Shown here: positions 9,576 to 50,711 of the stretch, piece by piece
Position numbering within the stretch: the stretch's first letter is position 1
Layout of the letters: each line of letters opens with the position of its first letter
Source: Mycobacteriales bacterium
Lineage (GTDB): Bacteria; Actinomycetota; Actinomycetes; Mycobacteriales; SCTD01
DNA: 64,000 nt
Direction: 5' to 3'
Assembly (NCBI GenBank): GCA_030697205.1
Contig: JAUYQP010000055.1
Span: 1 to 64,000 of the forward strand
Notes under the pieces: model-generated
Told to the model about the DNA's origin: nothing
Databases searched by the model: none
Seen by the model: the letters and a program-made list of their open reading frames with translations, nothing else
Made by a program: the position numbers and the translations under genes

Positions 9576-9582
9576 GGCGACA

Positions 9583-9593
9583 TCCTGCCAGGA
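9583..9593. promoter_or_regulatory. Palindrome serving as two opposing ribosome sites
   Basis: TCCTGCCAGGA is a perfect inverted repeat around a central C. Its AGGA half lies just upstream of ATG 9601 on the plus strand. Its complement supplies AGGA upstream of GTG 9575 on the minus strand. The two starts are 25 bp apart, so both promoters must lie inside the opposing coding regions. Confidence 0.55.
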
Positions 9594-9600
9594 TGGGCGC

Positions 9601-10056
9601 ATGACCTCCGACCCTCGTGTGGACAGGATCCAGGCCCTGGTGGGCACCCGGCTCGGCCCGAGCGACTGGCTGCTCGTCGACCAGGAGCGGGTCGACCGCT
9701 TCGCCGACGCCACCGACGACCACCAGTGGATCCACGTCGACGTCGAGCGCGCCGCGACGGGCCCCTTCGGGGGCACCGTCGCGCACGGCTACCTCACGGT
9801 GTCGCTGCTGCCCGCGCTCGCGTCACCGCTGATGCCGACAGAGGGCTTCGCCTCGCGCCTGAACTACGGCAGCGACAAGGTGCGCTTCCCCGCGCCGCTG
9901 CGGGTCGGCACCCGGGTGCGCGCCTGGTCGACGCCGGTGTCGGTCGACGTCACCGACCGTGGCGTGCTCGTGAAGCAGCGCGTCGAGATCGAGGCGGAGG
10001 GCTCCGAGCGCCCCATCTGCGTCGCCGAGGCCCTCGCCCTGCTCATCCCCGGCTGA
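9601..10056 (+). CDS. MaoC family dehydratase
   Basis: This 151-residue single hot-dog protein belongs to the MaoC/(R)-specific enoyl-CoA hydratase family. The hydratase signature is visible as DATDDHQWIHVD, followed by GPFGGTVAHGYLT, with the catalytic Asp and His in the first segment. Length is typical of the single-domain form. It probably hydrates a 2-enoyl-CoA, although no fatty-acid genes lie beside it. ATG 9601 has AGGATGG upstream. It overlaps the end of the convergent ltrA gene by 14 bp. Confidence 0.88.
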   Translation: MTSDPRVDRIQALVGTRLGPSDWLLVDQERVDRFADATDDHQWIHVDVERAATGPFGGTVAHGYLTVSLLPALASPLMPTEGFASRLNYGSDKVRFPAPLRVGTRVRAWSTPVSVDVTDRGVLVKQRVEIEAEGSERPICVAEALALLIPG

Positions 10057-31912: not shown

Positions 31913-33334
31913 TCAGGCGGCGGAGAGGAGGTCCTTGAGCTCGTCCGCGAGGTAGCCGGCCAGGGCGTCGAGGTCCGGCACGAGATAGCGGTCGGCGATC
32001 AGCCCGAAGTGCAGCTCGCCGTCGTAGGACATGACCGTGATGTTGAGGCCCTGGCCGTCGGCGATGGCCGACAACGGGTAGTAGGCGAGCAGCCGCGCCC
32101 CGGCGTAGTAGAGCGGGACGGGCGGGCCCGGGACGTTGCTGATGATGAGGTTGAAGGCGCTCACCCGCTCGACCAGCCGCAGCCGGGCCGCGAGCCGCGC
32201 GGCTTGACCGGCCAGCGCCGGCGCGGCGAACTGCGTGACGTCCGACAGCAGGTCGGCGGGCAGCGCGCCGTGCTGCGACTTGGCGTGGCCCATCGCGGCG
32301 CGGACCGCCTGCAGCCGCTCGACCGGGTCGGCCAGCTGCGTCGGAAGCGCCGCGAGCATGCTCGACACGCGGTTGCCGCCCGCTCCCTTCTCGGCATCGG
32401 AGCGCACCGACACGGGCACGCCGGCGACCAGCGGGGCCTCGGGCAGCGCGTCGTGGTCGAGCAGCCAGCGACGCAGGGCCCCGGCCGAGAGCGCCATCAC
32501 GACGTCGTTGACGGTGGTGCCGTGGGCGTTCTTCACGGCCTTGACGTCGTCGAGCGAGAGGCTGACGAAGGCCCACCGGCGGTGCGGGCCGATCGAGCGG
32601 TTGAACGGCGTCGCGGGGGCCCGCAGGCCGGGGCGCGACAGCACGTCGGCGTGCTCGCGGCGCAGCAGCCGATCGATGACCGGGAGTCGCGGCGCGGCGG
32701 CGGCGAGGTCCGGGGCGGAGCGCAGCAGCGACAGCCCGACACGGGCCGCCCGCACGGGGTGTCCGGCGAGCGAGACCCCGCTGCGGGCGAGCAGCCGCGC
32801 GGCGCTCGGGGGCCGCTCGACGGGCGGCCGGTCGACCCGCTCGTCCGGGCGCCCCTCCGGCGTGAGGTCGAGAACCGCGGCGAGGATGTCGTTGCCCGAC
32901 ACCCCGTCGATCGCGGCGTGGTGGACCTTCGAGTAGACCGCCTTGCGGCCACCGGACAGGCCGTGCACGAGGTAGAGCTCCCACAGCGGCCGGCGCCGGT
33001 CGAGCGCCCGCGCGTGGAGCCGCGCGCACTGGTCGGCGAGCTGTCGGTCGTCACCGGGGGCGGGCAACGCAAGCTCCCTGACGTGGAACTCCACGTCGAA
33101 GTCGGGGTCCTCGATCCAGTAGGGCTGGTCGAGGCCGAGCGGCACCTCGACGAGCCGCCTCCGGAACGGCGGGATGAGGTGCAGCCGTGACTCCACGAGG
33201 TGAGTGAGCCGCTCGAGGGTCAGCTCGTGGTCGGCGGTCGACGGGTCGAGCACGCAGACGCTGCCGACGTGACCGAAGACCGAGGAGGTCTCCATGGCGA
33301 GGAAGGCGGCGTCGAGGCCGGTCAGCTGCTGCAC
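31913..33334 (-). CDS. WS/DGAT wax ester synthase/diacylglycerol acyltransferase
   Basis: The protein of about 473 residues belongs to the bifunctional WS/DGAT family that makes wax esters or triacylglycerol from acyl-CoA. It starts QQLTGLDAAFLAMETSS, the usual family opening. The active-site motif HHAAIDG lies near residues 136-142. FNLIISNVPGPPVPLYYAGA and the PLSAI segment are the conserved C-terminal blocks. Longer in-frame starts run into the divergent dioxygenase gene, so I use GTG 33334. The gene suggests storage-lipid synthesis. Confidence 0.9.
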   Translation of the reverse strand: MQQLTGLDAAFLAMETSSVFGHVGSVCVLDPSTADHELTLERLTHLVESRLHLIPPFRRRLVEVPLGLDQPYWIEDPDFDVEFHVRELALPAPGDDRQLADQCARLHARALDRRRPLWELYLVHGLSGGRKAVYSKVHHAAIDGVSGNDILAAVLDLTPEGRPDERVDRPPVERPPSAARLLARSGVSLAGHPVRAARVGLSLLRSAPDLAAAAPRLPVIDRLLRREHADVLSRPGLRAPATPFNRSIGPHRRWAFVSLSLDDVKAVKNAHGTTVNDVVMALSAGALRRWLLDHDALPEAPLVAGVPVSVRSDAEKGAGGNRVSSMLAALPTQLADPVERLQAVRAAMGHAKSQHGALPADLLSDVTQFAAPALAGQAARLAARLRLVERVSAFNLIISNVPGPPVPLYYAGARLLAYYPLSAIADGQGLNITVMSYDGELHFGLIADRYLVPDLDALAGYLADELKDLLSAA

Positions 33335-33398
33335 GTCCTGCGTTGTACTGCAGTTGCGCCCGCAGCACCAGCCTGCGGCCGCCTGCGAGAGTGAGCGC

Positions 33399-34124
33399 AT
33401 GAGCGACAGTCGCGTCACCTACTCGTCGTACCTGCGGGTCGAGGAGCTGCTGACCCTGCAGCAGGAGCCCCGGGCCCACGACGAGCTGCTCTTCGTGGTC
33501 CTGCACCAGAGCCACGAGCTGTGGTTCAAGCTGGTGCTCCACGAGCTCGACGACGCGACCGCGCTCATCGCCGCCGACCGCTTCCCGCAGGCCGAGACCC
33601 GGCTGCGCCGGATCGTCACGATCATGCGCCAGCTCATCGCGCAGTGGGACGTGCTCGGCACCATGTCCCCCGCCGGCTACCTCGAGTTCCGCCACGCGCT
33701 CGAGGGCGGCAGCGGCTTCCAGTCGGCGCAGTGGCGCGAGGTCGAGTTCGCCAGCGGCCTCAAGGACGAGGGGTACGTCGACTCCGCCTGGCTCTCGGCC
33801 GAGGAGGTGGCGCGGCTGCGCGCCAGGCTCGCCGCCGCCTCGCTCGCCGACGTCTTCGACGGGGCGCTGGCCCGCCACGGGGTGGCCGACGTCGCCGACG
33901 TCCTGCGCGGCGGACCCGACCACGCGCTGCTGATGATGCTCGCCGAGACGCTGCTGGACTACGACGAGGCGGTCGGCCACTGGCGGCACCGCCACGTGCT
34001 CGCCGTGGAGCGCCAGATCGGGCTCAAGCCCGGCACCGGCGGCTCCTCCGGCGCGGCCTACCTGCGCTCGACACTCACCCGGCGCTTCTTCCCGTCGCTG
34101 TGGGAGGCCCGCACCCGGCTGTAG
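33399..34124 (+). CDS. kynA: Tryptophan 2,3-dioxygenase family protein
   Basis: The 241-residue heme dioxygenase opens the indole ring of tryptophan to N-formylkynurenine. Conserved segments are TYSSYLRVEELLTLQ, LLFVVLHQSHELWFK (with the distal His and substrate-contacting residues) and FRHALEGGSGFQSAQWRE. RHRHVLAVERQIG carries the proximal His region, and GTGGSSGAAYL is the family's C-terminal loop. Length is slightly short but complete. No kynureninase or formamidase gene lies next to it, so the rest of the pathway must be elsewhere. ATG 33399 was chosen over upstream in-frame starts that enter the divergent gene. Confidence 0.9.
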   Translation: MSDSRVTYSSYLRVEELLTLQQEPRAHDELLFVVLHQSHELWFKLVLHELDDATALIAADRFPQAETRLRRIVTIMRQLIAQWDVLGTMSPAGYLEFRHALEGGSGFQSAQWREVEFASGLKDEGYVDSAWLSAEEVARLRARLAAASLADVFDGALARHGVADVADVLRGGPDHALLMMLAETLLDYDEAVGHWRHRHVLAVERQIGLKPGTGGSSGAAYLRSTLTRRFFPSLWEARTRL

Positions 34125-36675: not shown

Positions 36676-37721
36676 CGCGCAGCGAGCCAGCCCAGGACGG
36701 ACCCGAGCGCGGCGGCGGTGCGCAGCCGGAGCAGGTCCTGGCCGTCGGCGACCTCGACGACTACCCCGCCAGCGGTCCCACGGGCCCGGCCGGGTCGGGT
36801 CCCGACGAGCAGCGGCTCGTCACCGACGGGCGCCGTCAGGTCACGCCCGCTGATCCGGTCGAGGACGACCGGCTGGCCGTCGCAGTCGGCCACCTGGCGG
36901 GTCGTGGTGCGGGCCAGCTCGGTCGTGCCCGGCGCCGCCGCGAGCACCCTGGCCGCGCCGGTCCAGGAGCAGCCCGGTGGCGGCTCGCCCTGGGGCACGG
37001 CGCTCTGCACGGCCGCGATGCGCAGCCGCGGGTCGAGCTCCGACGGCGACTGGCCGTCGAGCGGGTCGAGCAGGGCCAGCGCGGTCACCGACGTGGCGGT
37101 GCGGGTGCGCAGGTCGGTGCCGCCGGCCTGCCAGGTGTCGGCGAGCAGCCGGCCGGCTGCGTCCACGCAGGAGCGCGCCCGGTCGGCCGCGGTGGCCGCC
37201 GCGACCGGGGCGGCGTCGAGCGGCTCGCGGGTCAGCCACCAGGTGCAGCCGGCCCCCGCGACCCTGCCACTGCCGTCCCGACGGGCCCGCCCGACGCCCT
37301 CGGCCCAGGCCAGCGTGGCGGTCAGCCGCAGATCGGAGCCGGTTTCGCCCGGGGCGACGGCGGCCAGCTGCCGCCAGGTCCCGTCGACGCGGTCGTAGAC
37401 GGCCGACGGCGTCGTCGCCGTCCCCGCACCGCCGGGCAGCAGATGGCGGCTCGCGGTGCCGCCCGCGACCTGCGCGACCTCGACCACCTCCTGCGCGGTC
37501 GTGCCCGCGACCAGGTCCCTCACGTCGTAGGCGATCCGGTAGCCCGCAGGCTCGACACCGGGGCCGGGGTGGGGACCGCCGTCGCCGTCGCCGTCGGCAC
37601 GCAGGAGCACGATGCCCGCGACCGCCAGCGCGACGACCAGCGCGACGACCACCGCGACGACCACCGCGACCGCGGCGACTGGCGCGGGGCGCCTCCTCAG
37701 CGGTGCGACGGACCGACCCAC
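36672..37721 (-). CDS. Membrane-anchored protein, unknown function
   Basis: The protein of about 349 residues begins with a basic stretch and one long hydrophobic helix (VAVVVAVVVALVVALAVAGI), then a Gly/Asp-rich linker and an extracytoplasmic domain of about 290 residues. That domain has about six Cys residues, for example CTWWLTREP and CSWTGAARVL, suggesting disulfide bonds. GTG 37721 overlaps the end of the preceding gene by 25 bp; the AGGAGG downstream of it is too far from any later GTG. No family was recognised. Its position suggests linkage to the secreted protein upstream. Confidence 0.65.
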   Translation of the reverse strand: MGRSVAPLRRRPAPVAAVAVVVAVVVALVVALAVAGIVLLRADGDGDGGPHPGPGVEPAGYRIAYDVRDLVAGTTAQEVVEVAQVAGGTASRHLLPGGAGTATTPSAVYDRVDGTWRQLAAVAPGETGSDLRLTATLAWAEGVGRARRDGSGRVAGAGCTWWLTREPLDAAPVAAATAADRARSCVDAAGRLLADTWQAGGTDLRTRTATSVTALALLDPLDGQSPSELDPRLRIAAVQSAVPQGEPPPGCSWTGAARVLAAAPGTTELARTTTRQVADCDGQPVVLDRISGRDLTAPVGDEPLLVGTRPGRARGTAGGVVVEVADGQDLLRLRTAAALGSVLGWLAAR

Positions 37722-39454
37722 AGCGGCAAGGGTGCCAGGTCGGGCTCGGCGACCTCGGTGTAGTAGCGGATCGTCCAGTAGGGCGTGAGGTAGTCGACGC
37801 CGGGCGCGGCGTGCGTCGGGCCCTCCTCGCCGTCGAGTTGCGTCGGCGGGCGCTGCCACAGGAAGTCGGTCGGCGTGCGCAGCGCGACGGGCAGCGGGTT
37901 GCGGGCGCGCATCTGCGGCTGCGGGTCGGGCTCGAGCGTCGCGGAGTCGGGCACCGTGACGGTGCCGGCAGCAGTGTCGACGTCGAGCTGGTTGGCCGGG
38001 ACGCACTCGAGCTCGGTGCCGCAGCGCTCGCTGTTGCGCACGACCCGACCCGCGGCCGAGTGGGTCGTCGCGCGGTAGTCGAGCCACTCGTCGAGGTGCC
38101 GCACCGCGTCGTCGATGCGGTGCTGCTCACCGGTGCGGCCGAAGACGATCGACTCGAAGTGCGCGTTTCCGTCGTCACCGGTGGTCGCGTCCATGACCGC
38201 CAGCCCACGCGACAGCTCCTCGCGCACGACCGGGTCGCCCTCGAGACGGATCGTGTTGGAGAGAGTGAGGTGGTTGAGGTTGTACTTGTAGTAGCCGTCG
38301 TTGGGCATCGCCGCGTCCACCTCCATGGCGACGGCGTAGACCGGCAGCTGCGAGGAGACCTCCTCGACCCACACCGCCTCCCACACGGCCTGCTGCTCCG
38401 GCGTCCCGTCCGCCGCGACGTGGCGCGCGGACTGCGTGACGTGCAGCCGCGCCGACGGGACCTGCTGCATGAAGGCCGGTGAGATGAAGTTGTCGAAGTC
38501 GTGCCCGTTGAAGCCGGTCACCGGCACGTTGAGCGGCAGCTTCGGGACCGAGATGTTGCCGTGCGGGCGTGGGAAGGACCAGCCGAACTTCACCAGCCGG
38601 GTCGCGAGCGCCAGCACGTCGGCGCGGATCTGCGCGCGCAGCGCGGGGTCGTCCTCGCCGACGAGGTCGTAGGCGTGCAGCAGGCCGTAGAGCGTCCCGG
38701 CGTAGGAGTCGCGGCTCGGCGCGGTCTCGCAGTAGTACTCGCCGTCGGGGATCTCACCGGTCAGCCCGTCGTCGACCCAGGTGAACGGGCCGAAGATGCG
38801 CTTGTTGCCGCCGGGCGTGATGCCGATCCCGTCGGGGGTGTCGGCGGGGGCGGGCGCGCAGCCGCGCATGAGCATCCCCTCCTCCCCCTGAAAGGCCGGG
38901 ATGCCGCCGCCGAACGACGGCGGGCCGCCCGCCGGGGAGGTCGGGTCGTACGACGTGTTCGGTGCGAACTCGGTCTGCCACGCGCGGCCGATCCGGGTGA
39001 GCAGGTGGAACTTGTCGCTCATGAGGCGGACCCGCGCCAGCGCCTCGGAGCGCTGCGCCGTCCAGTAGGCCCGCTGCTCGTCCGTCAGCGGCGTACGCCC
39101 CTTGGCCTTGCCCTTGCCCTCCTTCGGGCCACCGAGCTTGTCGTCGGCGACGGCGTAGCGCATCGACTCGCCCGCGAGGTAGACACCGGTCCACAGCGCC
39201 GAGTCGCCCCAGGCACCGCCGCTCACGACCTGACCGAGGACCCGCTCGGGGGTGGCGTAGTCGATCTCGAGGACCTGGCCGTAGCGCAGGTGGTCGGTCA
39301 TGCGCCGCTCGAGCTCGAGCACCGCGCTGTCGTCGGCGCAGGCGAGCGGCCCGTCGCAGACCGGCGGGGCCGGCTTCTGGTCCGGCTTCGCGACGGCGAC
39401 CGTCGAGGGCACCGCCACGGCGACGGCGGTCAGGAGCAGGGCGAGTCGGCGCAC
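37697..39454 (-). CDS. Large secreted protein, unknown function
   Basis: The 585-residue protein has a clear signal peptide (RRLALLLTAVAVAVPSTVAVA). Its mature part is rich in aromatic residues and helices. Segments such as AWGDSALWTGVYLAGESMRY, HNLNHLTL-like sequence (YNLNHLTLSN) and DGNAHFESIVFG are reminiscent of alpha/alpha-barrel glycan-active proteins. I cannot assign a family from sequence alone. It lies 17 bp after the MFS-LivF gene in the same direction and is followed by a membrane-anchored protein, so it may work at the cell surface with the transporter. Confidence 0.65.
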   Translation of the reverse strand: MRRLALLLTAVAVAVPSTVAVAKPDQKPAPPVCDGPLACADDSAVLELERRMTDHLRYGQVLEIDYATPERVLGQVVSGGAWGDSALWTGVYLAGESMRYAVADDKLGGPKEGKGKAKGRTPLTDEQRAYWTAQRSEALARVRLMSDKFHLLTRIGRAWQTEFAPNTSYDPTSPAGGPPSFGGGIPAFQGEEGMLMRGCAPAPADTPDGIGITPGGNKRIFGPFTWVDDGLTGEIPDGEYYCETAPSRDSYAGTLYGLLHAYDLVGEDDPALRAQIRADVLALATRLVKFGWSFPRPHGNISVPKLPLNVPVTGFNGHDFDNFISPAFMQQVPSARLHVTQSARHVAADGTPEQQAVWEAVWVEEVSSQLPVYAVAMEVDAAMPNDGYYKYNLNHLTLSNTIRLEGDPVVREELSRGLAVMDATTGDDGNAHFESIVFGRTGEQHRIDDAVRHLDEWLDYRATTHSAAGRVVRNSERCGTELECVPANQLDVDTAAGTVTVPDSATLEPDPQPQMRARNPLPVALRTPTDFLWQRPPTQLDGEEGPTHAAPGVDYLTPYWTIRYYTEVAEPDLAPLPLWVGPSHR

Positions 39455-39471: not shown

Positions 39472-41505
39472 TCAGGTGGTCACGAGGGGCGCGTCGGTGC
39501 GCCCTCCGAGGAAGACGGAGCGGAGCAGGTCGTCGCGGTGCAGGAGCTCGGCGGTCGGGCCCTCGAAGCGGACCGTGCCCTTCTCCATGAAGTAGGCGCG
39601 GTCGGCGAGGGTGAGCGCGACGTTGACCGACTGCTCGACGAGCACGATGGTCACGCCCTCGGCGTTGAGCCGGCGCACCGTCGCGAGCAGCTCCTGGACG
39701 ACGATCGGCGCGAGGCCGAGCGAGAGCTCGTCGATGAGCAGCAGCTTCGGCTTGAGCAGGAAGGCCTGGGCGAGCACCAGCTGCTGGCGCTGGCCGCCCG
39801 ACAGCGCGCCCGCGCGCAGGCCCAGCAGCGGGCGCAGCGCGGGGAAGACGTCGAGCACCTCGTCGAGGCGGGCCGCGAGCAGCGCCTTGTCCTTGCGCAG
39901 CAGGAAGGCACCGAGGCGCAGGTTCTCCTCGACGGTGAGACCGGGGAAGATGCCGCGACCGCCGGGGGCCTGCACGATGCCGCGGGCGGTGGTGCGCTCC
40001 GGCGGCTCACCGGTGATCGGCACGCCGCCGAGCCAGACGTTGCCGCCGTCGGGCTCGACCAGGCCGTTGATGGCGTTGAGGGTCGTGGACTTGCCGGCGC
40101 CGTTGGTGCCGAGCAGCGCGACGATCTCGCCCTCGCGGACCTGCAGGTCCACGCCGAAGAGCACCTGCACCCCGTCGTAGGAGACGGTGAGGTCCTTGGT
40201 CTCGAGCAGCAGCACGCTGCCGTCGGCCGCGGTGCGGGCCCCCTCGTCGACATGGGTGGGGTCGCGACGGGCGACGTCGGCGTCGATGTAGCGGGCGACG
40301 GTGAGGATGTGGAACACCCCGCGGGTCAGGCACAGGGCCGCTGCAGCGAAGGCCCAGCCGTAGCCCCCCTGATCCGCGATGAGGGCGATCAGCAGGGCCG
40401 GGATCGCGCCGAGCAGCCAGATCACCTGCCCGATGGAGTACGCCGACGACCGCAGCTCGGGCGGCGCGATGAGCGTGCCGATCGTCGCAAGCAGCGGGCT
40501 GATCAGTCCAAACAGCGCGAACAGCCCGAACAGCAGGGGCATCGTGATCCACAGCGTCGGCGCCAGGCCGAAGACCCCCAGCACGCCCGCGGACACGAAC
40601 ATGACCGTGGCGATCCAGCGCACTCCGACGTGGGGAGCCTCGTTGAGGCGCTCCTGCGCGATCCTCGCCCCGATGAACGTCGAGACCATGGCCCCAAGAC
40701 CGGCGACCGCACCGATCACCCCGACACCGAAGGCACCGATGTCGTAGGTCTCCTTGAAGTAGAACGGCAGGATCAGCACCGAGCCCAACGTGCCGCCGCC
40801 GACGATCCAGATGCCGGCGAACCAGACGTAGCGCTGCGAGCGGATCGCGTAGAGCCGCGGGAAGACCTCGCGGAAGGGCAGCTGCTCCTCGGTCTCGCGG
40901 CGCTCGTGGCTACCGCGTGCCGGCTCGGCCACCTTGCGGACCGCGAGGATCGTCAGCAGCGTGGGGATCGCCAGCACGACGAAGGCCGCGCGCCAGCCGA
41001 AGAACTGCGCGATCACCCCCGCCCCGAGGGCGCCGAAGATCGCACCGACGGTGTTGGCCTGGGAGTGCACGCCCAGGGCCTTCGCGCGCACCCGCGGCGG
41101 GTAGAAGTCGGCCAGCAGCGACAGCTGCACGGGGTAGCTCACGGTGCGGCCGAGCGACGAGCCGATCCGCGCGAGCACCAGCAGCGTCAGCGTGAACGCG
41201 GCAGCGGAGGCGAGCGAGAAGACCGCCCACGTCGCGGCGCAGGCGATCGCGATCGGCATCCGGGCCCGCCGGTCGGCGGCCAGCGACACCGGGATCGCGA
41301 TGAGCGGCGCGACCACGAGCACCAGGATCCCGATGACGCCGAAGGCGCCGACGCCCTTGCCGAAGGACTCCGCGATGATCGGGCCGAGCCAGATGAAGGT
41401 CGCGTTGTCGAGCTCGTCGACGGCGTTGAGGCCGAACATCGCCGCGGCCGGCTTGGGGTCCTCGCCGTCGAGGTAGCCCCGCAGCCGCGACATGGGTCCC
41501 CTCAT
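39472..41505 (-). CDS. MFS permease-LivF ATPase fusion protein
   Basis: This 677-residue protein joins two transporter types. Residues 1 to about 420 form a complete 12-helix major facilitator domain (for example SSLGRTVSYPVQLSLLADFY). Residues from about 432 form a LivF-type ABC ATPase: Walker A GTNGAGKST near 464, signature LSGGQRQQL near 567, Walker B LLLIDELSLGLAP near 588. The ATPase half would pair with the LivH-LivM gene upstream, whose stop overlaps this ATG (ATGA). How the MFS half contributes is unknown. Similar fusions are known in actinobacterial liv-like operons; the arrangement is not a frameshift or assembly artefact, because one frame stays open throughout. Confidence 0.88.
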   Translation of the reverse strand: MRGPMSRLRGYLDGEDPKPAAAMFGLNAVDELDNATFIWLGPIIAESFGKGVGAFGVIGILVLVVAPLIAIPVSLAADRRARMPIAIACAATWAVFSLASAAAFTLTLLVLARIGSSLGRTVSYPVQLSLLADFYPPRVRAKALGVHSQANTVGAIFGALGAGVIAQFFGWRAAFVVLAIPTLLTILAVRKVAEPARGSHERRETEEQLPFREVFPRLYAIRSQRYVWFAGIWIVGGGTLGSVLILPFYFKETYDIGAFGVGVIGAVAGLGAMVSTFIGARIAQERLNEAPHVGVRWIATVMFVSAGVLGVFGLAPTLWITMPLLFGLFALFGLISPLLATIGTLIAPPELRSSAYSIGQVIWLLGAIPALLIALIADQGGYGWAFAAAALCLTRGVFHILTVARYIDADVARRDPTHVDEGARTAADGSVLLLETKDLTVSYDGVQVLFGVDLQVREGEIVALLGTNGAGKSTTLNAINGLVEPDGGNVWLGGVPITGEPPERTTARGIVQAPGGRGIFPGLTVEENLRLGAFLLRKDKALLAARLDEVLDVFPALRPLLGLRAGALSGGQRQQLVLAQAFLLKPKLLLIDELSLGLAPIVVQELLATVRRLNAEGVTIVLVEQSVNVALTLADRAYFMEKGTVRFEGPTAELLHRDDLLRSVFLGGRTDAPLVTT

Positions 41506-43469
41506 CGGCCCGCCCCGACGAGGACGGGCTGCGGCTCGAGCTCGGGCTCGGGCTCGGGAACCGGCTCGACCCGCGGCCTCGCCTCGACCCCGGTGACGAG
41601 CAGCGCGACCCGGTCGCGGACCGCGAAGGCGACCCGGGCCAGCCCACCCGGCAGCACGAGGACGAGCACGAGCAGGCCGACGCCGGTGGAGAGGATCCCG
41701 AAGTACGGCGAGACGTCGGCGGCGAAGTAGGGGATGCCAAGGAGGTACGCCGTGCCGAGCACCGCCCCGCCGACCGAGCCGAGGCCGCCGATGATCGCCG
41801 CGGCCAGCAGGCCGAGCGAGCGGTGGGCGGGGAACGCCTCGGGGCTCGCGGTGGTCACCCCGGCTGCCCACAGGAAGCCGGCGAGGCTCGCCAGGGTGCC
41901 CGACAGGACGAAGGTCGTGAGCTTCGTGCGGACCACCGCGATGCCCATCGCGGCGGCCTGCGCGGGGTTGTCGCGAACGGCCACGACGTTGCGGCCGAAG
42001 CGCCCGCGCTGCAGGGTCCGCACCCCGAGCATGACGACGACGAGGAAGACGAGGCAGACGTAGTAGTAGGTGTCGATGCCTATCCAGGCGGGGCGCTCGA
42101 GGACACCGGTACCGGCGAACCACGGCTGGTCGAACAGCCAGGTGGAGCACACGACCGCGAAGCCGAGCGTGACCACCGCCAGCAGCGGCCCGGGCAGCCG
42201 CAGGGCCGGGAGTCCGAGAAGCAGCGAGATCAGCCCCCCGAGCGCACCGACGGCGAGGAAGGCCAGCCAGAACGGCACGCCCAGCACCTCGTGGAGCCGG
42301 CTGCCGAGGACGCCGCCGACGCCGGCCAGCGCCCAGTGGCCGATGGACAGCTGACCGCCCCAGCCGGACAGCACGGTCAGGGCGATCGTCACGACGCTGA
42401 CCGCACCGATGGTGGCCAGCAGGAAGGTGCTCGAGGAGCTGAGCACACCGGGCGCGAGCAGGAGCAGGGTGGCGGTGACGCCGACGCTCGCGAGCACGAC
42501 GCCCCGCCAGCGGCGGTCGCCGGTGATCTCGGGAGGCAGCGCGCGCACCGGGTCCGAGACCGCCCACGACGACTCCTCCGAGGCCGTGGTGCGGCGCTTC
42601 TCGAAGCGGCGCAGGAGCAGCACGACGAGCACCACACCGAGCACGACCGCGTCGGTGACGCCGCTCTTGCCTGTGTAGAAGATCGCGAGCTGGTCGACGA
42701 GGCCGAAGACGAGCCCGAGCCCGAAGGCGAGCCCGACGGACTCGAAGCGCGCGACCGTCGCGGCGGCCAGGCCGCGGGCCAGCAGCGGCAGGCCGACCGC
42801 CTCGGTGCTCGAGAAGCCGACGATCGGGGCCAGCAGGATCGCGCCGATGCCGGCGAGCAGGCCACCGATGACCCAGGCCAGGGTGCTGACCCGGCGGACC
42901 GGGATGCCGAGCAGCTGGGCGCGCGCGGAGTTCTCCGCCGACGCGCGCATCGCGATGCCGTAGACGCTGCGCCGCAGGAAGAGCACGACGCCGAGGACGG
43001 CGAGCGGGCCGACGACCAGGACCATCAGGTGCTGCGGCCCGATGATGACGCGCCCGAACTCGAAGGACGGCTCGCTGAAGGGGACGGGGAACGACGTACC
43101 GCCTCCGGCGAAGACCGCGTCGTCACCGTTCTTCGGCTTGGGCAGGACCAGCCGGCCGACGGTGACGACCTGGGCGACCCCGACCGTCGCGATGAGCACG
43201 ATGAGGCGAGGGCTGCGGAACAGCCGCTGGATGACGGTGCGCTCGATGGCGGCGGCAAGCAGGGCGGTGCCGGCGAGGCTCGCCAGCAGCGCCGGCCAGT
43301 AGGCCCAGTCGAGGACCTGGGTGAAGGTGAGCATGAGCGCGACCGCGAAAGCGCCGATCTCGCCGTGGGCGAAGTTGACGACGCGGTTGCTCATGTAGAT
43401 GAGGACGAGGCCGACGGCGAGCAGCGCGTTGGCCATCCCGATCGTGAGACCGAGCAGGACGAGGTCCAA
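41502..43469 (-). CDS. LivH-LivM fused ABC permease
   Basis: The 655-residue membrane protein fuses both permease subunits of a branched-chain amino acid-type (LIV/HAAT) ABC transporter. The N-terminal LivH half contains MSNRVVNFAHGEIGAFAVAL and AMRASAENSARAQLLGIPV. The C-terminal LivM half contains LSGWGGQLSIGHWALAGVGG and AVRDNPAQAAAMGI, the EAA-type ATPase contact. A Pro/Glu-rich cytoplasmic tail ends it. The start is a TTG directly after the TAG of the substrate-binding protein gene. Substrate cannot be read from the permease; the nearby GlcNAc genes suggest an amino-sugar compound. Confidence 0.9.
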   Translation of the reverse strand: MDLVLLGLTIGMANALLAVGLVLIYMSNRVVNFAHGEIGAFAVALMLTFTQVLDWAYWPALLASLAGTALLAAAIERTVIQRLFRSPRLIVLIATVGVAQVVTVGRLVLPKPKNGDDAVFAGGGTSFPVPFSEPSFEFGRVIIGPQHLMVLVVGPLAVLGVVLFLRRSVYGIAMRASAENSARAQLLGIPVRRVSTLAWVIGGLLAGIGAILLAPIVGFSSTEAVGLPLLARGLAAATVARFESVGLAFGLGLVFGLVDQLAIFYTGKSGVTDAVVLGVVLVVLLLRRFEKRRTTASEESSWAVSDPVRALPPEITGDRRWRGVVLASVGVTATLLLLAPGVLSSSSTFLLATIGAVSVVTIALTVLSGWGGQLSIGHWALAGVGGVLGSRLHEVLGVPFWLAFLAVGALGGLISLLLGLPALRLPGPLLAVVTLGFAVVCSTWLFDQPWFAGTGVLERPAWIGIDTYYYVCLVFLVVVMLGVRTLQRGRFGRNVVAVRDNPAQAAAMGIAVVRTKLTTFVLSGTLASLAGFLWAAGVTTASPEAFPAHRSLGLLAAAIIGGLGSVGGAVLGTAYLLGIPYFAADVSPYFGILSTGVGLLVLVLVLPGGLARVAFAVRDRVALLVTGVEARPRVEPVPEPEPELEPQPVLVGAGR

Positions 43470-45080
43470 CTAGGGCTTCTTCCAGGTGTCGTCGAACAGC
43501 GGACGCAGGTCCTCGCCACCGGACTTCCCCGGTCCGAAGCGGCTCCAGTACTTGGGGTACTCCGGGAAGGAGTAGTCGCCGGCGTTGCGGTCCCACCGCA
43601 CCACGGTCTGGTGGTCGTAGCCGGTGAAGTCGAACGGCCGCGCCAGGCTGGTCGGGACGGTGTAGGTCATCGGGACGTGCGCGTCGTAGTAGAAGTCGCG
43701 CTTGATGGCGTTGACGCCGACCTGCAGCGAGTTGGCGGTGAGCACCCCGGTCAGGTCCACGGCCCGCTCCATGGCCTCCGTCGAGGTGAGGATGGCGATG
43801 CAGGCGATCAGCACCGATGCCGAGCCGGACTGGCCGTCGCCCGGGTAGTACTTCTCGTAGATCTTCGTGCAGTTGTCCTCGTTGGGGTGGTCACCGGGCT
43901 TGATGCGCGGCGACAGCCCGATCGCGTTGACCCACTGGTTCTGGTTCATCAGCGAGCCGCCCAGCGCGGCGTCGATGAGCGCGGTGCGGCCAGTGAAGGT
44001 GTAGATCGGGTGCCAGTCCTGCTGCTCGGCGGCGTTGCTGAAGAAGATCATGCCGATCGCGTTGTTGGCGACGAACCAGACCTGGCCGCACTTGCCCTTC
44101 ATCCGGATGACCGCGGCGGTGGCCTGCTGCTGGGCCGTCGAGGCGTCGTCGGCGTAGCGGATGACATCGGCGAAGGACAGGCCCTCGGCCTTCATCAGTG
44201 CGACCAGGATCTTCTCCTGGTTGTTGAAGTCCTCGGTGTCGGGGTGCACGAAGCAGGCGCGCTTCTCGACCGGGCCGTCCGGCGACGTACCGAGGTAGTG
44301 GCGACCGAAGCTGGCCCAGTTGGCGAAGTCGCTGTCGGCGTCCTGGAAGAGCTGGAACTGCCCGATCCCGCGGCTCTTCTGCTCGGCCTTGGTCGAGCGT
44401 CCGCCGAAGATCGGGATCTTGCGCTTGAGGACCGCGTCGCCGACGGGGTGCAGGCCCACCAGCGCCATGAAGACCTTGTGCTGGTCGACCATCTCGATGG
44501 CGGCCGCGGTGTTGCGCTCGGGGCACTGCAGGCCGCCGTCGTCGACGGTGACGGTCGACAGGGTCCGGCCGCGGACGCCGCCGGTGTCGTTGACGTGGCG
44601 GGTGAACGCCGCCACCGCCTTCTCCGGGTCGCCGACCACCGCCGGGCCGAGGGCCGCCTCGAGAGCGCCCGCGTCGCCGCAGCCGGACTTGTTGTAGTCG
44701 AGACCGATCTTCACCGAGGTCGGGGTGACGCCCTGGGTGCGGAGCCCGAAGTCGGGGACGGCCACGGTAGAGCCGGGCTTCACCGTGGTCGGGACGCTGC
44801 CAGGCACGGTCTGACCCGGGCGCGTGCCCGGGGTGGAGCCGGGCTGCTGCGCGCCGGGCCCCGTCGTCGCCGTGGCCGACGCGGTGGGGATCGGCTGGCC
44901 GTCGGGGGTCGTGGAGCTCTCCCCCGGCACCACGACCTGGTCCGGCGCGCCGGCCAGCGCGTCGGGGCCGGACGCCTTCTGCTGGTCGAGCTCGTAGCGC
45001 ACCTGCCCGACCGACAGCAGGGACGTCACGAGGACTGCGGCAGCCGCGATCGCGACAGGCTTCGTGCGGGGATCCGTCAC
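43470..45080 (-). CDS. LIV-type ABC transporter substrate-binding protein
   Basis: The 536-residue protein is a periplasmic-binding-protein-fold receptor of the LIV (type I) family. It has an N-terminal hydrophobic segment (VAIAAAAVLVTSLLSVGQV) without a lipobox, then a Pro/Thr/Ser-rich linker (residues about 50-105), then the binding domain starting GVTPTSVKIGLDYNKSGCGD. A long spacer of this kind often lets the receptor reach through the cell wall. It lies first in the transport operon, one base before the permease start. A promoter is visible upstream. Confidence 0.88.
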   Translation of the reverse strand: MTDPRTKPVAIAAAAVLVTSLLSVGQVRYELDQQKASGPDALAGAPDQVVVPGESSTTPDGQPIPTASATATTGPGAQQPGSTPGTRPGQTVPGSVPTTVKPGSTVAVPDFGLRTQGVTPTSVKIGLDYNKSGCGDAGALEAALGPAVVGDPEKAVAAFTRHVNDTGGVRGRTLSTVTVDDGGLQCPERNTAAAIEMVDQHKVFMALVGLHPVGDAVLKRKIPIFGGRSTKAEQKSRGIGQFQLFQDADSDFANWASFGRHYLGTSPDGPVEKRACFVHPDTEDFNNQEKILVALMKAEGLSFADVIRYADDASTAQQQATAAVIRMKGKCGQVWFVANNAIGMIFFSNAAEQQDWHPIYTFTGRTALIDAALGGSLMNQNQWVNAIGLSPRIKPGDHPNEDNCTKIYEKYYPGDGQSGSASVLIACIAILTSTEAMERAVDLTGVLTANSLQVGVNAIKRDFYYDAHVPMTYTVPTSLARPFDFTGYDHQTVVRWDRNAGDYSFPEYPKYWSRFGPGKSGGEDLRPLFDDTWKKP

Positions 45081-45132
45081 GCTCGTCCACCTTCAGGGCA
45101 GGATGGTGAGTGCAGGGCTTATTTGTAGCAGT

Positions 45133-45160
45133 AGATTACATTGTTCGCCGCCAGGGTCAA
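45133..45160 (-). promoter_or_regulatory. Promoter of the transport operon
   Basis: On the minus strand TTGACC (45155-45160) and TAATCT (45133-45138) are separated by 16 bp, about 55 bp before the GTG of the substrate-binding protein gene. The short AT-rich stretch 45119-45143 supports promoter function. The ROK repressor gene starts 15 bp to the right, so the regulator probably binds here; TGTA and TACA half sites flank the -10 box. Confidence 0.55.
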
Positions 45161-45174
45161 CGAGGAGTGTTTCG

Positions 45175-46350
45175 GTGTCGGTGACCACGGTCCTGCTCAG
45201 CAACCGGCAGATGGGTGACGTCAACCGCTCCCGGGTGCTCAGCGCGCTGTGCGACCACGGGCCGCTGTCGCGCGCCGAGCTGGCCCGACTCGCGGGCGTC
45301 CCTCGCGCCACGATCGGCACCATCGCCCAGGGCCTGGTCGACGACGGGCTGCTGGAGGAGAGCGAGCCGGTGCGCGGTTCGGGCAAGGTCGGCAAGCCCG
45401 GCCGGCCGCTGTGGTTCCGCCGCGACGCGGGGATCTGCGCGGCCGTCGCGTTCGGCAGCGACGCCGTCGAGGCCGCGCTCGTCAACGCCCGCGGTGACGT
45501 CCTCATCCGCGTCGAGGTCCCCTGCGACACCGCCCGCGCGGGCAGCGACGAGCTGGTCGCCGCCGTCCTCGAGGGCGTCGCCCGCGCGGTCACCGGCGCG
45601 CCCGCCGCGGTCCTCGGCATCGGCGTCGCCGTGCCGGGCGTCTGCGACCCCGCCACCGGCACCGTCGTCGGCTCCGGTCCGGTGCCCGGCGCCCGGGGCC
45701 GCGCCCTCGCGACCGCGCTCGAGCAGGCCCACGCGCTGCCCGTGCTCGTCGACAACGACGCCCGCGCGCAAGCCCTCGGGGAGAAGTGGTTCGGCGACGG
45801 CCGCGGCGTCGCGACCTTCGCGTCGGTGCAGACCGGCTCCGGTCTCGGGGTCGGCCTCGTCCTCGACGGCGAGCTCTACCGCGGCGCCGACGGCGCGACC
45901 GGCGAGCTCGGTCACACCGTCGTCGCCCTCGATGGCGAGCCCTGCTCCTGCGGGCTGGTCGGCTGCTGGGAGACCGTCGCGACGCTGCGCTGGCTGCGCA
46001 CCGAGGCCGCCGCGCTCGGCCTGCCCGGTGCGGTCTCCCTCGACGCCGCCGCGCTCGTCGCCCTCGACTCCGACCCGGCGCGCGCGCTGCTGGCCCGCTA
46101 CGCCGACCACCTCGCGGTCGGCCTCGTGACGCTGGTGCACCTGCTCGCGCCCACACGACTACTGCTGCACGGCGACGTCGTCGGTGGCGGCGAGGTCCTG
46201 CGCGCGCTCGTCGCGGAGCGGGTCGCCGCGCGCTCGCTGCCGCACGTCCGCGAGTCGGTCGAGGTGCTGCTGTCCTCGCTCGACCAGGACGCCAGCCTGC
46301 TGGGCGCGGCCGGACTCGTGCTGTCCCAGCGCTTCACCCTGGCGGCCTGA
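45175..46350 (+). CDS. ROK family transcriptional regulator (NagC/XylR type)
   Basis: The 391-residue protein has an N-terminal winged helix (SRAELARLAGVPRATIGTIA, about residues 33-52) and a ROK sugar-binding domain. ROK marks include GIGVAVPG, the DNDARAQALGEKW segment and the zinc motif CSCGLVGCWE. It is a likely amino-sugar- or sugar-responsive repressor of the divergent transport operon. GTG 45175 has GAGGAG seven bases upstream, which decides the start against other GTG codons. NagC-type regulators typically sense GlcNAc-6-phosphate; here this is inference. Confidence 0.88.
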   Translation: MSVTTVLLSNRQMGDVNRSRVLSALCDHGPLSRAELARLAGVPRATIGTIAQGLVDDGLLEESEPVRGSGKVGKPGRPLWFRRDAGICAAVAFGSDAVEAALVNARGDVLIRVEVPCDTARAGSDELVAAVLEGVARAVTGAPAAVLGIGVAVPGVCDPATGTVVGSGPVPGARGRALATALEQAHALPVLVDNDARAQALGEKWFGDGRGVATFASVQTGSGLGVGLVLDGELYRGADGATGELGHTVVALDGEPCSCGLVGCWETVATLRWLRTEAAALGLPGAVSLDAAALVALDSDPARALLARYADHLAVGLVTLVHLLAPTRLLLHGDVVGGGEVLRALVAERVAARSLPHVRESVEVLLSSLDQDASLLGAAGLVLSQRFTLAA

Positions 46351-46595: not shown

Positions 46596-47384
46596 TCAGC
46601 CGGAGCGGTTGATGGCGGCGGGGTCGGAGCCGAGGTAGGAGCGCACGACGGCCGGGTCGCGCACGACGTCCTGCGGCTCGCCCTCGGCGATGACGCGGCC
46701 GGTCTCGAGGGCGTAGAGGCGGGTTGTGAGCGAGAGCACCAGCGGCATGTCGTGCTCGATGAGGACGAGCCCGCAGCCGAGGTCGTCGCGCACCCGCAGC
46801 AGCAGCGGGGCGAGCTGCTCGGTCTCGCGCTGGGCGATCCCCGACGACGGCTCGTCGAGCAGCACGACCTTGGGCCGCGCGATGAGCAGGCAGGCCAGGT
46901 CGATGATGCGCCGGGTGCCGGTGGAGAGCTCGCCGACGAGCTTGTCGCGGTAGCCCCCGAGCGAGAAGACCTCGACGAGCTCCTCGGCGCTGCGGGTCGC
47001 GACCTGCTCGCCCTCGCGGACGCGGCTGCCACCGAGCAGGGTGCCGAGCAGCGACGACCCGACCGGGCGGTGCCGCTCGGAGGCGGCGCGCAGCGTGTCG
47101 AGCACCGACATCGAGTGGAAGAGCCGCGCGTCCTGGAAGGAGCGACCAAGACCGGCGCGGGCCCGCGCGTGGATCGGGGCGCCTGACACGTCGACCCCGT
47201 CGAGCAGCACCGTGCCCTCGCAGGCCGTGATGCCCGACAGGCAGTCGAACAGCGTCGTCTTGCCGGCGCCGTTGGCCCCGATGACGCCGACGACCTCTCC
47301 GGCCTCGACGGTGAGGTCGACGCCCTGCAGCGCCTTGACCCCACCGAAGGACACTGCGATGCCACGTGCCTCCAGCACCGTCAC
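46596..47384 (-). CDS. LivG-type ABC transporter ATP-binding protein
   Basis: The 262-residue ATPase matches LivG of branched-chain amino acid-type transporters: Walker A GANGAGKTT, signature LSTGTRRI, Walker B VVLLDEPSSGIAQRE and the H-loop LIEHDMPLV. The adjacent transport operon encodes a LivF fused to MFS but no LivG, so this protein is the obvious missing subunit. It is the last gene of the leftward amino-sugar operon and starts in a GTGA overlap with the GH84 gene. GTG 47384 has GGGAG seven bases upstream. Confidence 0.88.
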   Translation of the reverse strand: MTVLEARGIAVSFGGVKALQGVDLTVEAGEVVGVIGANGAGKTTLFDCLSGITACEGTVLLDGVDVSGAPIHARARAGLGRSFQDARLFHSMSVLDTLRAASERHRPVGSSLLGTLLGGSRVREGEQVATRSAEELVEVFSLGGYRDKLVGELSTGTRRIIDLACLLIARPKVVLLDEPSSGIAQRETEQLAPLLLRVRDDLGCGLVLIEHDMPLVLSLTTRLYALETGRVIAEGEPQDVVRDPAVVRSYLGSDPAAINRSG

Positions 47385-48664
47385 GATCGGGCTCCCGTCA
47401 GTCGGGCGAGGGCCTCGCGGCACATCGCATCCAGGATCGTGTCACCGCGGACGAGCCCGGCGGGGTCGACGAGCTCGGCGTCGCCGTCGCGCCGGGTCAG
47501 CGGGTAGAGCGCGAAGCGGGTCCCGAACAGCTGCCGCTCCTGCGCGAGGCCGCGCCGCCAGACCTCGGCGACGGTGAAGGCCGCGCCGGGCGAGCCGCCG
47601 CGCAGCGCCTCGAGCAGCACCGGCACCGCCATCGCGTGCCACTCCCAGGCCTCGAGCCAGGGCTCGAGGTCGGCGACCCACTCGGCGGGCAGGCCGTCGC
47701 GGCAGCCCGCGGCGAGGAAGGCCTCGAGGCGGCCGTCGCCGTCGAGGGCGGCGAGGGCCCACCCCAGCAGCTCCGGGTCGGGGCCGGGATCGGTGAGCCA
47801 GGACCGGCAGGCCCGGGCGAGCGGCGTGAGGCCCGGGACGGCCGCGAGCTCGGCCTCCCACACCACGGTCCGGTCCTGCGACGGGTCGGCCCACCAGCGC
47901 AGCGCGGCCGCGGCCGGCAGCCGGGACGCCACCGGTCGCGGGCCGAGGTTGAGCAGCAGCCCGCCGAGAGCAGCCGGCAGGTCGGCCGGCCGGTGCGGGT
48001 AGGGCCCGAGGTGCAGCAGCCCCGCCATCGGCCCGTCGGAGACCGGGAAGTTGTCGGCGAGCAGCAGCGGCCGCCCGAGCTCGCGCGACAGGTCCTGCGC
48101 CAGCGAGGTCGGCACGTCGGCCGACAGGATCCCCGGCCCGGTCCAGTAGACGTCGACATCGGCGGGCAGCGCGCCGACGAACCCACGCAGGTACGACGTG
48201 ACGCGGTCCGTGCCGTAGTCGACCGGGCAGGTCGCCCACTCCACGTCGTCGGGGAGCCCCGCGACCGCAGCGGCCACCGCCTCGCCATGGACCCGCCCGA
48301 GGTCCTCGCCGCCGGGCGGCACGTCGTCGAAGGCCACCCCGAGCAGCCGCGCCCCGAGGTCGTGGAACGCCTGCAGCTTCGCGACCAGTGCGGCCTCGTC
48401 AGCCGGCGCCCAGTCGAGACCCGGTGAGACGACGAAGCCGACGCGTACGCCGTGACGCTCCCCCGCCGCGAGCAGCTCGGCGAAGTGGGCCATCCGGTCG
48501 GGTGGGTAGGGCTCGCGCCAGCGTGCCCGCTGGAACGGGTCGTCCTTCGGGGCGTAGACGTAGTCGCGCCCGCCGGCGGTCGGCAGCCAGGCGAGCAGCG
48601 CCAGCCGGGCGTCGTCGGCGTAGGGCTCGCCGTAGAAGCCCTCGAGCACGCCGTGGACGGTCAC
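47381..48664 (-). CDS. GH84 beta-N-acetylglucosaminidase (O-GlcNAcase-like)
   Basis: The 427-residue protein starts VHGVLEGFYGEPY, the GH84 signature. It carries the paired catalytic aspartates in GVAFDDVPP near residues 112-113, with VVSPGLDW and YVYAPKDDP also as in the family. It should remove N-acetylglucosamine by substrate-assisted catalysis. No signal peptide is present, so the substrate must be taken up first. It is coupled by 4-bp overlaps to both neighbours. The aspartate pair strongly favours hydrolysis of a GlcNAc- or GalNAc-containing conjugate. Confidence 0.88.
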   Translation of the reverse strand: MTVHGVLEGFYGEPYADDARLALLAWLPTAGGRDYVYAPKDDPFQRARWREPYPPDRMAHFAELLAAGERHGVRVGFVVSPGLDWAPADEAALVAKLQAFHDLGARLLGVAFDDVPPGGEDLGRVHGEAVAAAVAGLPDDVEWATCPVDYGTDRVTSYLRGFVGALPADVDVYWTGPGILSADVPTSLAQDLSRELGRPLLLADNFPVSDGPMAGLLHLGPYPHRPADLPAALGGLLLNLGPRPVASRLPAAAALRWWADPSQDRTVVWEAELAAVPGLTPLARACRSWLTDPGPDPELLGWALAALDGDGRLEAFLAAGCRDGLPAEWVADLEPWLEAWEWHAMAVPVLLEALRGGSPGAAFTVAEVWRRGLAQERQLFGTRFALYPLTRRDGDAELVDPAGLVRGDTILDAMCREALARLTGARS

Positions 48665-49767
48665 GCCGCCGCCAGCGCGTCGAGCAGGGCGCGCAGGGCT
48701 GGGGCGCCGAGACCGAGTTCGTCCTCGTAGCCGCCGTCGAGCGCGTCGGGGTGCGGAAGGTAGCCGTACCAGGACGGCGCGAGGCCGACGGGCACGACGG
48801 TGCCCGGCCGGGTCACCTCGGCCGCGAAGGCCCCGAGCGGCTCGCCCGGCATCGACACCAGGTGCGCGGTCCCGACCTGCCACTCCAGCAGCTCGGCGAC
48901 GACGGTGGCCTGACCCCCGGAGACCAGCCGCGACAGCTCGGCCTCGGCGACGGGCAGCTCGATCGCGCGGTGCGACAGCTCGAGGTGGACCCCGCCGTCG
49001 GTGACCCGGGCGGCGGCGGCGACCGCGAGGGCGGCCACCGCGGCACCCACCGAGGCCGCCAGCGACGGGCCGCCGCCGGCCCGGTCGTAGCCGTCACCGC
49101 CCGGCGGGTTGACGTCACCGAGCGCGCCGGCGACGACGACCGCCGTGCCGCCGAGCGCCGCCTCGAGGGCGGTGCGGCAGTGCCCGACCCAGTCGGCGGT
49201 GACCACGTGCACGTCGGGCCCGTGGGTGACCGGGTGGATGCCGACGCCGATGACGGAGGCGAGCCGCGACCCGGACCGCCACAGGTCGAGCAGCTGCAGG
49301 CGAGGGACGTGGGACCGGCCGCGCCGGTTCACCGCGAGCGTGACCGGCACGTCGACCTCGGCGATGCCGAGCGCCACCGGAGCGAGGTCGGCCAGAGCAC
49401 GGGAGGCCGCATCGACGCAGGCCGCGGCGAGCAGCTCGGGGTAGCCGGGGTGCAGGTCCATCCCGAGCAGCGTGTCGGGGCCGGAGTGCGTGTGGGTGCA
49501 CGACGTCAGCACCCGCTCGACGTGCACGCCGGTGGTGGAGGAGACGGCGAGCCGCAGCGCTGCCCCGGCCTCGGCGGACAGGCCCACCAGGTCGAGCACG
49601 AGCAGCACGGCGGTGGCCGCACCGTCGGACAGCGCGACCGCACGCACCTGCAGCGGGTCTGCGACGACGAGCCGAGGGACGGCCGGCTCGCGGTGCAGGA
49701 AGCCGGCCAGGCGCACCGCGGCGGTGGGCGTGATGTCGGCGACGGCGACCCCGGCGAGCAGCGTCAC
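48661..49767 (-). CDS. Neutral/alkaline ceramidase-like N-terminal domain protein
   Basis: The 368-residue protein begins with VAVADITPTAAVRLAGFLHR and has SCTHTHSGPDTLLGMDLH and IGVGIHPVTHG. These match the N-terminal domain of neutral/alkaline non-lysosomal ceramidases, where such His residues bind zinc. Many bacterial proteins with this domain are not ceramidases and sit beside sugar-catabolic genes. Without a signal peptide, an intracellular amidase acting on an N-acyl amino sugar is a reasonable guess. It overlaps both neighbours by 4 bp. Confidence 0.75.
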   Translation of the reverse strand: MTLLAGVAVADITPTAAVRLAGFLHREPAVPRLVVADPLQVRAVALSDGAATAVLLVLDLVGLSAEAGAALRLAVSSTTGVHVERVLTSCTHTHSGPDTLLGMDLHPGYPELLAAACVDAASRALADLAPVALGIAEVDVPVTLAVNRRGRSHVPRLQLLDLWRSGSRLASVIGVGIHPVTHGPDVHVVTADWVGHCRTALEAALGGTAVVVAGALGDVNPPGGDGYDRAGGGPSLAASVGAAVAALAVAAAARVTDGGVHLELSHRAIELPVAEAELSRLVSGGQATVVAELLEWQVGTAHLVSMPGEPLGAFAAEVTRPGTVVPVGLAPSWYGYLPHPDALDGGYEDELGLGAPALRALLDALAAA

Positions 49768-50711
49768 GCGACCGTCACCGGCGCCCCGGTGCGGGCCGAC
49801 TCGTAGCCCGCGAGGACTGCGGCGAGCGCGGCCCGTCCGTCGCGGCCGTCCGCGACGAGCGGCGAGCCGGTCGCGACCGACCGGGCGAAGGCTCCGGCGG
49901 TCCCCCGCAGCTCGGGCTGCCCGACCTCGACCTCGGCGCCGTCCTGCAGCAGTCGGCCGCCGTCCACCTCCAGGGTGCCGCGCGCCCCCGTGAAGCGGAA
50001 CGAGAACTGCTGCTCGGGCGCCTGCCACGAGACGACCACCGACGCCGGGGTGCCACCGACGAGGCGCAGCTCCAGCGACGCCACCTCCTCGACCGGCCCG
50101 GTCAGCTCGGCCGACACGACCTCCTCGAGGTCGGCGAGCGTCCAGCGCAGGGCGTCGAGGACGTGCACGCCCAGGTCGATGAGGACCCCACCCCCGGACA
50201 GCGCGGGGTCGCGGAACCACCCGCTGTCCGCAGACCAGGACTGCGGACCGGCGTGGCCGAGCGAGACCTCGACGCGCTCGACCTCACCGATGGCCGGCAC
50301 GCGGCGGCGCAGCTCCTGCAGGCCGGGCGAGATGCGGCCCTCGAAGCACTGACCCAGCAGCAGCCCCTCCCGGTCGGCGAGGGCGACGAGCTCATCGGCG
50401 TCGCGCAGCGTCGTGGTGAGCGGCTTCTCGACGAGGACGTGCTTGCCGGCCCGCAGCGCAGCGAGAGCCACCTCGTGGTGCAGCACGTTGGGCACGCAGA
50501 CGTGCACCGCGTCGACGTCGGGGCGCGCGACGGCGGCCCGCCAGTCGGTCGTCGCGTCGCCCGACCCCCACGCGTTGCGGGCGAGCTCGGCACTGCGGGC
50601 GCTTCGGCTCGCGAAGGCCACGACGTCGGCGTCGCCGCCCAGGCGCAGCGACGGCAGGTGACCGGTGCGCGCGACGGTGCCGCACCCGACGACGGCGACG
50701 CGGACGGTCAT
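49764..50711 (-). CDS. Gfo/Idh/MocA family oxidoreductase
   Basis: The 315-residue NAD(P)-dependent enzyme has an N-terminal Rossmann fold (VRVAVVGCGTVARTGHLPSL) and the EKPLTTTLRDADEL segment whose Lys is catalytic in the family. A C-terminal beta-sheet domain carries GGGVLIDLGVHVLDALRW. It oxidises or reduces a sugar or cyclitol hydroxyl. Lying next to a DegT aminotransferase, it could form or consume a keto-sugar that is then transaminated. It overlaps both neighbours by 4 bp. Confidence 0.87.
   Translation of the reverse strand: MTVRVAVVGCGTVARTGHLPSLRLGGDADVVAFASRSARSAELARNAWGSGDATTDWRAAVARPDVDAVHVCVPNVLHHEVALAALRAGKHVLVEKPLTTTLRDADELVALADREGLLLGQCFEGRISPGLQELRRRVPAIGEVERVEVSLGHAGPQSWSADSGWFRDPALSGGGVLIDLGVHVLDALRWTLADLEEVVSAELTGPVEEVASLELRLVGGTPASVVVSWQAPEQQFSFRFTGARGTLEVDGGRLLQDGAEVEVGQPELRGTAGAFARSVATGSPLVADGRDGRAALAAVLAGYESARTGAPVTVA

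Follow-up and report, generated by a model that had tools for sequence, protein, structure and literature searches.

Within the window, the 64,000-nucleotide stretch of a Mycobacteriales contig analysed here, a single unbroken ORF on the reverse strand (39472..41505, starting from an ATG at 41505 with a second ATG at 41493) was found by ORF calling, Pfam and AlphaFold2 to encode a 677 amino acid protein that joins an MFS carrier to a LivF-type ABC ATPase. The carrier, a Spinster-like domain of 12 predicted helices delimited by Pfam, profile comparison, AlphaFold2 and Foldseek, occupies residues ~18-412 (40270..41454, same strand as all features below unless stated) and is matched by Pfam MFS_1 over residues 32-368 (E 1.2e-36). 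Alignment places in it the TM1 motif NAVDELD (residues 27-33; 41407..41427), whose final residue D33 is equivalent to Asp41 of HnSpns, and MFS motif A, D78-R79...R82 (41260..41274). A linker of ~18 residues (~413-430; 40216..40269), evident in the AlphaFold2 model, leads into the ATPase domain (residues ~431-668; 39502..40215), recognised by Pfam (ABC_tran, residues 451-593, E 8.5e-26), NCBIfam and its motifs.

The preliminary description had reported a complete twelve-helix MFS domain followed in frame by a complete ABC ATPase, and both halves of that statement hold. The AlphaFold2 model of the whole chain, built with 48 related sequences, has a mean pLDDT of 90.7 and a pTM of 0.85 and contains twelve long MFS helices; the MFS half modelled alone reaches a pLDDT of 94, and the linker, which is similar in length throughout the fused family and poorly conserved in sequence, has a pLDDT of ~68. 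In the ATPase the Walker A (GTNGAGKS at residue 466; 40087-40110), signature (LSGGQ at 568; 39790-39804) and Walker B (LLLIDEL at 588; 39724-39744) motifs are all intact, and the switch His position is occupied by Gln (VEQS), as is normal in LivF proteins. Its nearest NCBIfam families are UrtE (4e-58) and then LivF (1e-51), with scores under both curated cut-offs. A chance in-frame run or an assembly error can be excluded as the same architecture is present in dozens of other genomes, some of them single-contig replicons, and an oddity confined to the source genome was rejected since 91 of 110 distinct related MFS genes are fused to LivF.

All the parts of a Liv/HAAT importer, the ABC type named for branched-chain amino acids (LivFGHMJ), lie in the one locus: two BPD_transp_2 permease halves, LivH and LivM, the two ATPases LivF and LivG, and a Peripla_BP_6 binding protein. 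The permease is itself a LivH-LivM fusion, as had been described, with BPD_transp_2 found by Pfam twice within one 655 amino acid ORF (41502..43469) whose stop overlaps the start of MFS-LivF by 4 bases (ATGA). It is preceded by the gene for the substrate-binding protein (43470..45080, Pfam), for which no solved structure was matched at E<=0.01, so that the attempt to deduce the substrate from it was set aside. LivG (46596..47423, its start perhaps nearer 47384; Pfam, NCBIfam and motifs) lies ~5 kb upstream of MFS-LivF and, like LivF, has its ATPase motifs, the signature reading LSTG. The window thus differs from other Liv/HAAT importers in having LivH and LivM in one chain and a LivF that bears an MFS domain, and its proteins score under the LivF, LivG, LivH and LivM equivalog cut-offs, so the substrate class is not fixed by family.

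Between LivG and the binding protein, and divergent from the latter, is a gene for a NagC/Mlc-like ROK regulator (45064..46350, forward strand), whilst upstream of LivG there is a GH84-type beta-N-acetylglucosaminidase (47381..48664, with a GTG start at 48664 inferred) that matches bacterial and human O-GlcNAcases, carries an FDD motif and, when read by eye from the probable start, lacks an evident signal peptide. The run continues after MFS-LivF with a 585 amino acid protein (37697..39454) that has a signal-peptide-like start, is recognised by neither Pfam nor NCBIfam and finds no convincing counterpart in PDB, and which is kept next to MFS-LivF in the related loci L011-L013 (59-71%) and L014 (38%). 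The order GH84, LivG, ROK, binding protein, LivHM, MFS-LivF recurs in L012, L013 and L243 (L013 and L239 being apparently one locus), with neighbours at 49-84% identity. Further out, GFO/IDH/MocA oxidoreductase, DegT aminotransferase and alpha/beta hydrolase ORFs follow in a row upstream of GH84 (49767-53526, reverse strand), and a tryptophan 2,3-dioxygenase gene is found at 33294-34124 on the forward strand.

Occurrence and history of the fusion

The fusion recurs in many actinobacteria, next to an importer channel that is itself fused. Among 396 phylum genomes searched with the MFS half, 16 gave matches at E<=1e-25, as did 10 of 200 from the order, the genus-level search covering the source genome only. 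An MFS-only profile at E<=1e-20 matched 32 of 149 phylum genomes, and reading of the loci assigned 32 of its 37 matches of at least 150 bits to fused genes, in 11 of the 149 genomes, and 5 to free-standing ones. At class level (E<=1e-45) 33 of 296 genomes were matched, with 16 fused and 4 free-standing genes in the 20 loci examined among the 56 matches, and a scan of named genomes gave 40 loci. Taken from 244 sequences (the loci and the window slice), the 110 distinct MFS genes of at least 150 bits comprise 48 encoding MFS-LivF-LivG, 43 encoding MFS-LivF and 19 whose ORF contains no LivF, some of these on short loci. No account of an MFS-LivF fusion was found in the literature searched, a search made by listings and abstracts with most subscription papers outside its coverage; both halves belong to known superfamilies and it is their combination that was found nowhere in that literature, though domain databases may carry the architecture unremarked.

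How often the fusion occurs together with fused permeases had been proposed as a check, and the association proved consistent. The neighbour is a one-ORF LivH-LivM for 53 of the 91 fused genes and a one-ORF LivH-LivM-LivG for another 20 (73 together), and at the remaining 18 the locus ends first, 16 showing part of the partner ORF and 2 none; there were no contrary cases. Two gene orders occur, LivHM then MFS-LivF(-LivG), and MFS-LivF then LivHM-LivG, the second being that of Embleya sp. NBC_00888, which serves as a named-strain example. Seven loci (L028, L029, L031, L034, L036, L037 and L045) have LivH-LivM-LivF-LivG in one ORF of ~1235-1555 amino acids, so that one polypeptide comprises an entire Liv importer apart from its binding protein. 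The locus L015 is labelled Acidobacteria; as a near-identical MFS gene is present in G010, a genome of the phylum of the window, that label is probably wrong.

In the MFS tree, a quick tree with SH-aLRT support only and a root inferred from the distant rows, distant free-standing carriers lie on one side and fused genes on the other, with 4 changes, and free-standing genes are nested among the fused ones (L083, L084 and the set L086/L088/L089/L090). In the LivF tree, which has long outgroup branches and several weak forks, eight MFS-less LivH-LivM-LivF(-LivG) chains form one group inside the MFS-LivF-LivG genes (95*). Read plainly, these trees would mean that the fusion arose once, that the carrier escaped from it a few times later on and that the carrier was lost at least once, and the nesting of both kinds of gene among fused ones suggests that the protein is made of two separable modules. 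A free-standing MFS gene and an MFS-less Liv chain were also considered as a split pair, an idea rejected as inconsistent over the genomes of L086/L088/L089/L090: whole-chain matches were long in G485, consisted of parts only in G504 (including its own triple fusion), were weaker and partial in G553, and were absent from G455, the L089 genome (99% complete, 4% contaminated), where the one-chain Liv transporter went unmatched at E<=1e-60.

It could be argued from this history that the fusion merely fixes the stoichiometry or co-localisation of two independent, uncoupled transporters, for the MFS gene is able to leave the fusion and the linker keeps its length rather than its sequence. It would seem very improbable that this is all that holds the two together, as the fusion has been retained whilst the MFS halves diverged to ~25-30% identity, and across both operon orders and two fusion styles.

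Kinship and conserved residues of the carrier half

By both profile and fold the MFS half is Spinster-like. A profile of 40 MFS sequences matches HnSpns (6e8j) at 2.2e-38, human SPNS1 at 2e-26, DgoT at ~4e-25 and SPNS2 at ~2e-16. As Foldseek results for the whole chain were dominated by ATPases, the MFS half was folded and searched alone, and its top 8 matches were all Spns structures, with TM-scores of 0.61-0.80. A generic drug/H+ antiporter was rejected as the closest kin because Spns is nearer, even though the NCBIfam matches are scattered and every one lies well under its cut-off. Carriers of this type are related to animal lipid exporters, and proton-coupled transport of lipids or drugs is characteristic of Spns. 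The source genome also has a free-standing Spns-like carrier, L149 (contig C6, ~8748-10031), with equivalents of Asp41, Arg42, Asp60 and Arg122 and an Asp at the place of Glu129.

The proton network of Spns, as set out in PMC9440201 and in a preprint (PMC13192786), comprises Asp41, Arg42, Arg122 and Glu129; Asp142 belongs to the inner gate, and an Asp60-Arg289 pair lies outside. In common with the Spns carriers (TC 2.A.1.49: HnSpns, MsSpns, SPNS1, SPNS2), the protein in the window has by alignment the TM1 Asp41-TM4 Arg122 pair (D33 and R113), Asp142 (D133) and EPxRG; it differs in being fused to an ABC ATPase, in the extra TM1 acids D30/E31, and in having Arg for Glu129 (R120), Val for Asp60 (V52) and Asn for Arg42 (N34). 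As these last three residues are not those of Spns, the protein has not been filed as a Spns member.

Among the relatives, the Glu129 protonation switch is E in 3, D in 4 and K or R in 33 of 63 fused rows, and as the near free-standing kin are also mostly non-acidic there (D in 3 of 11), its loss would be older than the fusion or unlinked to it. The substrate residue Arg42 is R in 27 of the 63. An Asp stands at the Asp60 place in 10 of 61 fused rows, as against 10 of 16 free-standing ones; the raw counts suggest a fusion-linked loss of Asp60, but with only 4 independent pairs on the tree the difference is not significant, and no such loss is claimed. With Glu129 replaced by Arg120 and Asp60 by Val52, proton coupling through the known Spns relay is unlikely.

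In the 61 fused rows the motif-A Arg (R82) is present in all, the motif-A Asp (D78) in 54, an acid equivalent to Asp41 in 52 and one equivalent to D30 in 53, the corresponding figures in the 16 free-standing rows being 16, 16, 16 and 15; the TM4 Arg is found in 52 of 63 fused rows. The exception is a fused clade of seven (L033, L136, L137, L140, L142, L146 and L147, with LivH-LivM-LivG as partner) in which the motif-A Asp is changed in every member, and Asp41 and Arg122 in all except L136. Loss of conserved MFS motifs across homologues had been put forward as the sign that the MFS half is only a membrane anchor, and the outcome is mixed: such a role does not follow for the protein in the window, where the motifs are kept as in most of the family, and is plausible in the clade of seven, in whose members a carrier may have become a scaffold or sensor.

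The two halves also change at different rates. Against the close relatives L010-L012 dN/dS is 0.12-0.20 for the N half of the MFS domain, 0.20-0.31 for its C half and 0.09-0.13 for LivF; for LivH-LivM, compared with L011 and L012, it is 0.19-0.25. These close values count in favour of a working carrier. Against L013 and L075 the figure is 0.53-0.70 for MFS and 0.20-0.28 for LivF, and the MFS C half reaches ~1.0 against L014 and L015, although distant values are unreliable given high G+C and saturation. These distant pairs point against a working carrier, allowing for that unreliability, and the faster change of the MFS half, which is 39% identical to that of L014 where LivF is 74% identical, must likewise be counted against it.

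A transporter turned receptor, in which the MFS half transports nothing and acts as a membrane anchor or as a ligand-sensing domain tuning the LivF ATPase, would account for this drift, for the missing equivalents of Glu129 and Asp60, and for a clade that has stayed fused with most of its motif gone. Nevertheless we consider it rather unlikely, as motif A, the TM1 Asp and the TM4 Arg are kept in the window and in most fused rows, free-standing genes that branch off from among the fused ones imply a carrier that works, and twelve full helices would be a costly anchor.

A possible role for the carrier half

What the sequences themselves show is the fusion together with its partners, that it recurs, and which residues are kept or lost; from these we infer the rest. 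The reading we prefer, and to which we would give an even chance, is that of a Liv/HAAT-type ABC importer with a complete Spinster-like MFS carrier joined to the N terminus of its LivF, the carrier being tethered, probably active and rewired with respect to protons. A Liv importer requires both LivF and LivG under LivH-LivM, and the C terminus of a twelve-helix MFS protein is cytoplasmic, which is where LivF must be; the fusion is therefore topologically sound and would place one carrier beside each importer. LivF would pair with LivG beneath LivH-LivM as in any Liv importer, with one MFS carrier held alongside each importer by the short cytoplasmic linker. The MFS half may still change conformation, given its inner-gate motif and TM1 Asp/TM4 Arg pair, and the kept gate residues together with the free-standing offshoots favour a carrier that is still moving something; the absence of the proton switches speaks against its being run in the Spns manner, so that the full proton relay would no longer be used. 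What it moves could be a partner, small or amphipathic, of the import substrate. Release of a product or counter-substrate ranks as our first choice for this movement, and a regulatory role as the second.

That the MFS half might instead take up the same substrate by a second route of low affinity, leaving the ABC half for times of scarcity, would fit with the shared operon and the constant partnership with one type of permease. We think it unlikely: sister one-chain Liv importers exist that have no MFS domain, and the Spns relatives named in the papers drawn on (PMC9440201, PMC3924187, PMC3654945, PMC13192786) are mostly exporters.

A bolder proposal is a hybrid class of transporter in which the LivF ATPase drives or gates the conformational cycle of the MFS half in place of protons, ATP binding at LivF-LivG then timing both import through LivH-LivM and a counter-movement by the carrier. 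It is prompted by the fused carriers being mostly devoid of the outer and inner proton switches of Spns (Asp60 and Glu129) whilst keeping the mechanical gate, and at present we would regard it as decidedly unlikely.

It is usual to regard primary transporters, which are ATP-driven, and secondary ones, which are gradient-driven, as distinct machines. LplT-Aas is an MFS fusion of another kind. So too is the Sensor Kinase-MFS family, TC 2.A.1.34, as listed in a table of PMC3924187; both have a secondary carrier and a partner domain in one chain, the partner there being a kinase or an acyltransferase and in MFS-LivF the ATPase of a primary transporter. MFS-LivF is a widespread and long-kept covalent join of a primary and a secondary transporter, with free-standing and MFS-less versions for comparison and a mostly motif-lost clade as a natural control, and it opens to direct test the idea that a single ATPase times a secondary carrier, or that a carrier becomes a regulator.

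As to what is imported, the apparently cytoplasmic GH84 enzyme with no evident signal peptide and the NagC-like ROK regulator, conserved together in L012, L013 and L243, suggest a locus for the uptake of a GlcNAc conjugate by a Liv-type importer. This link is limited to the close clade of the window. The triple-fusion loci are found near genes for ECH (enoyl-CoA hydratase), AMP-binding, SDR, PhyH, FAA hydrolase and MoCo oxidase proteins, and with such acyl-CoA and redox genes as neighbours the substrate probably varies between clades and would not always be a sugar.
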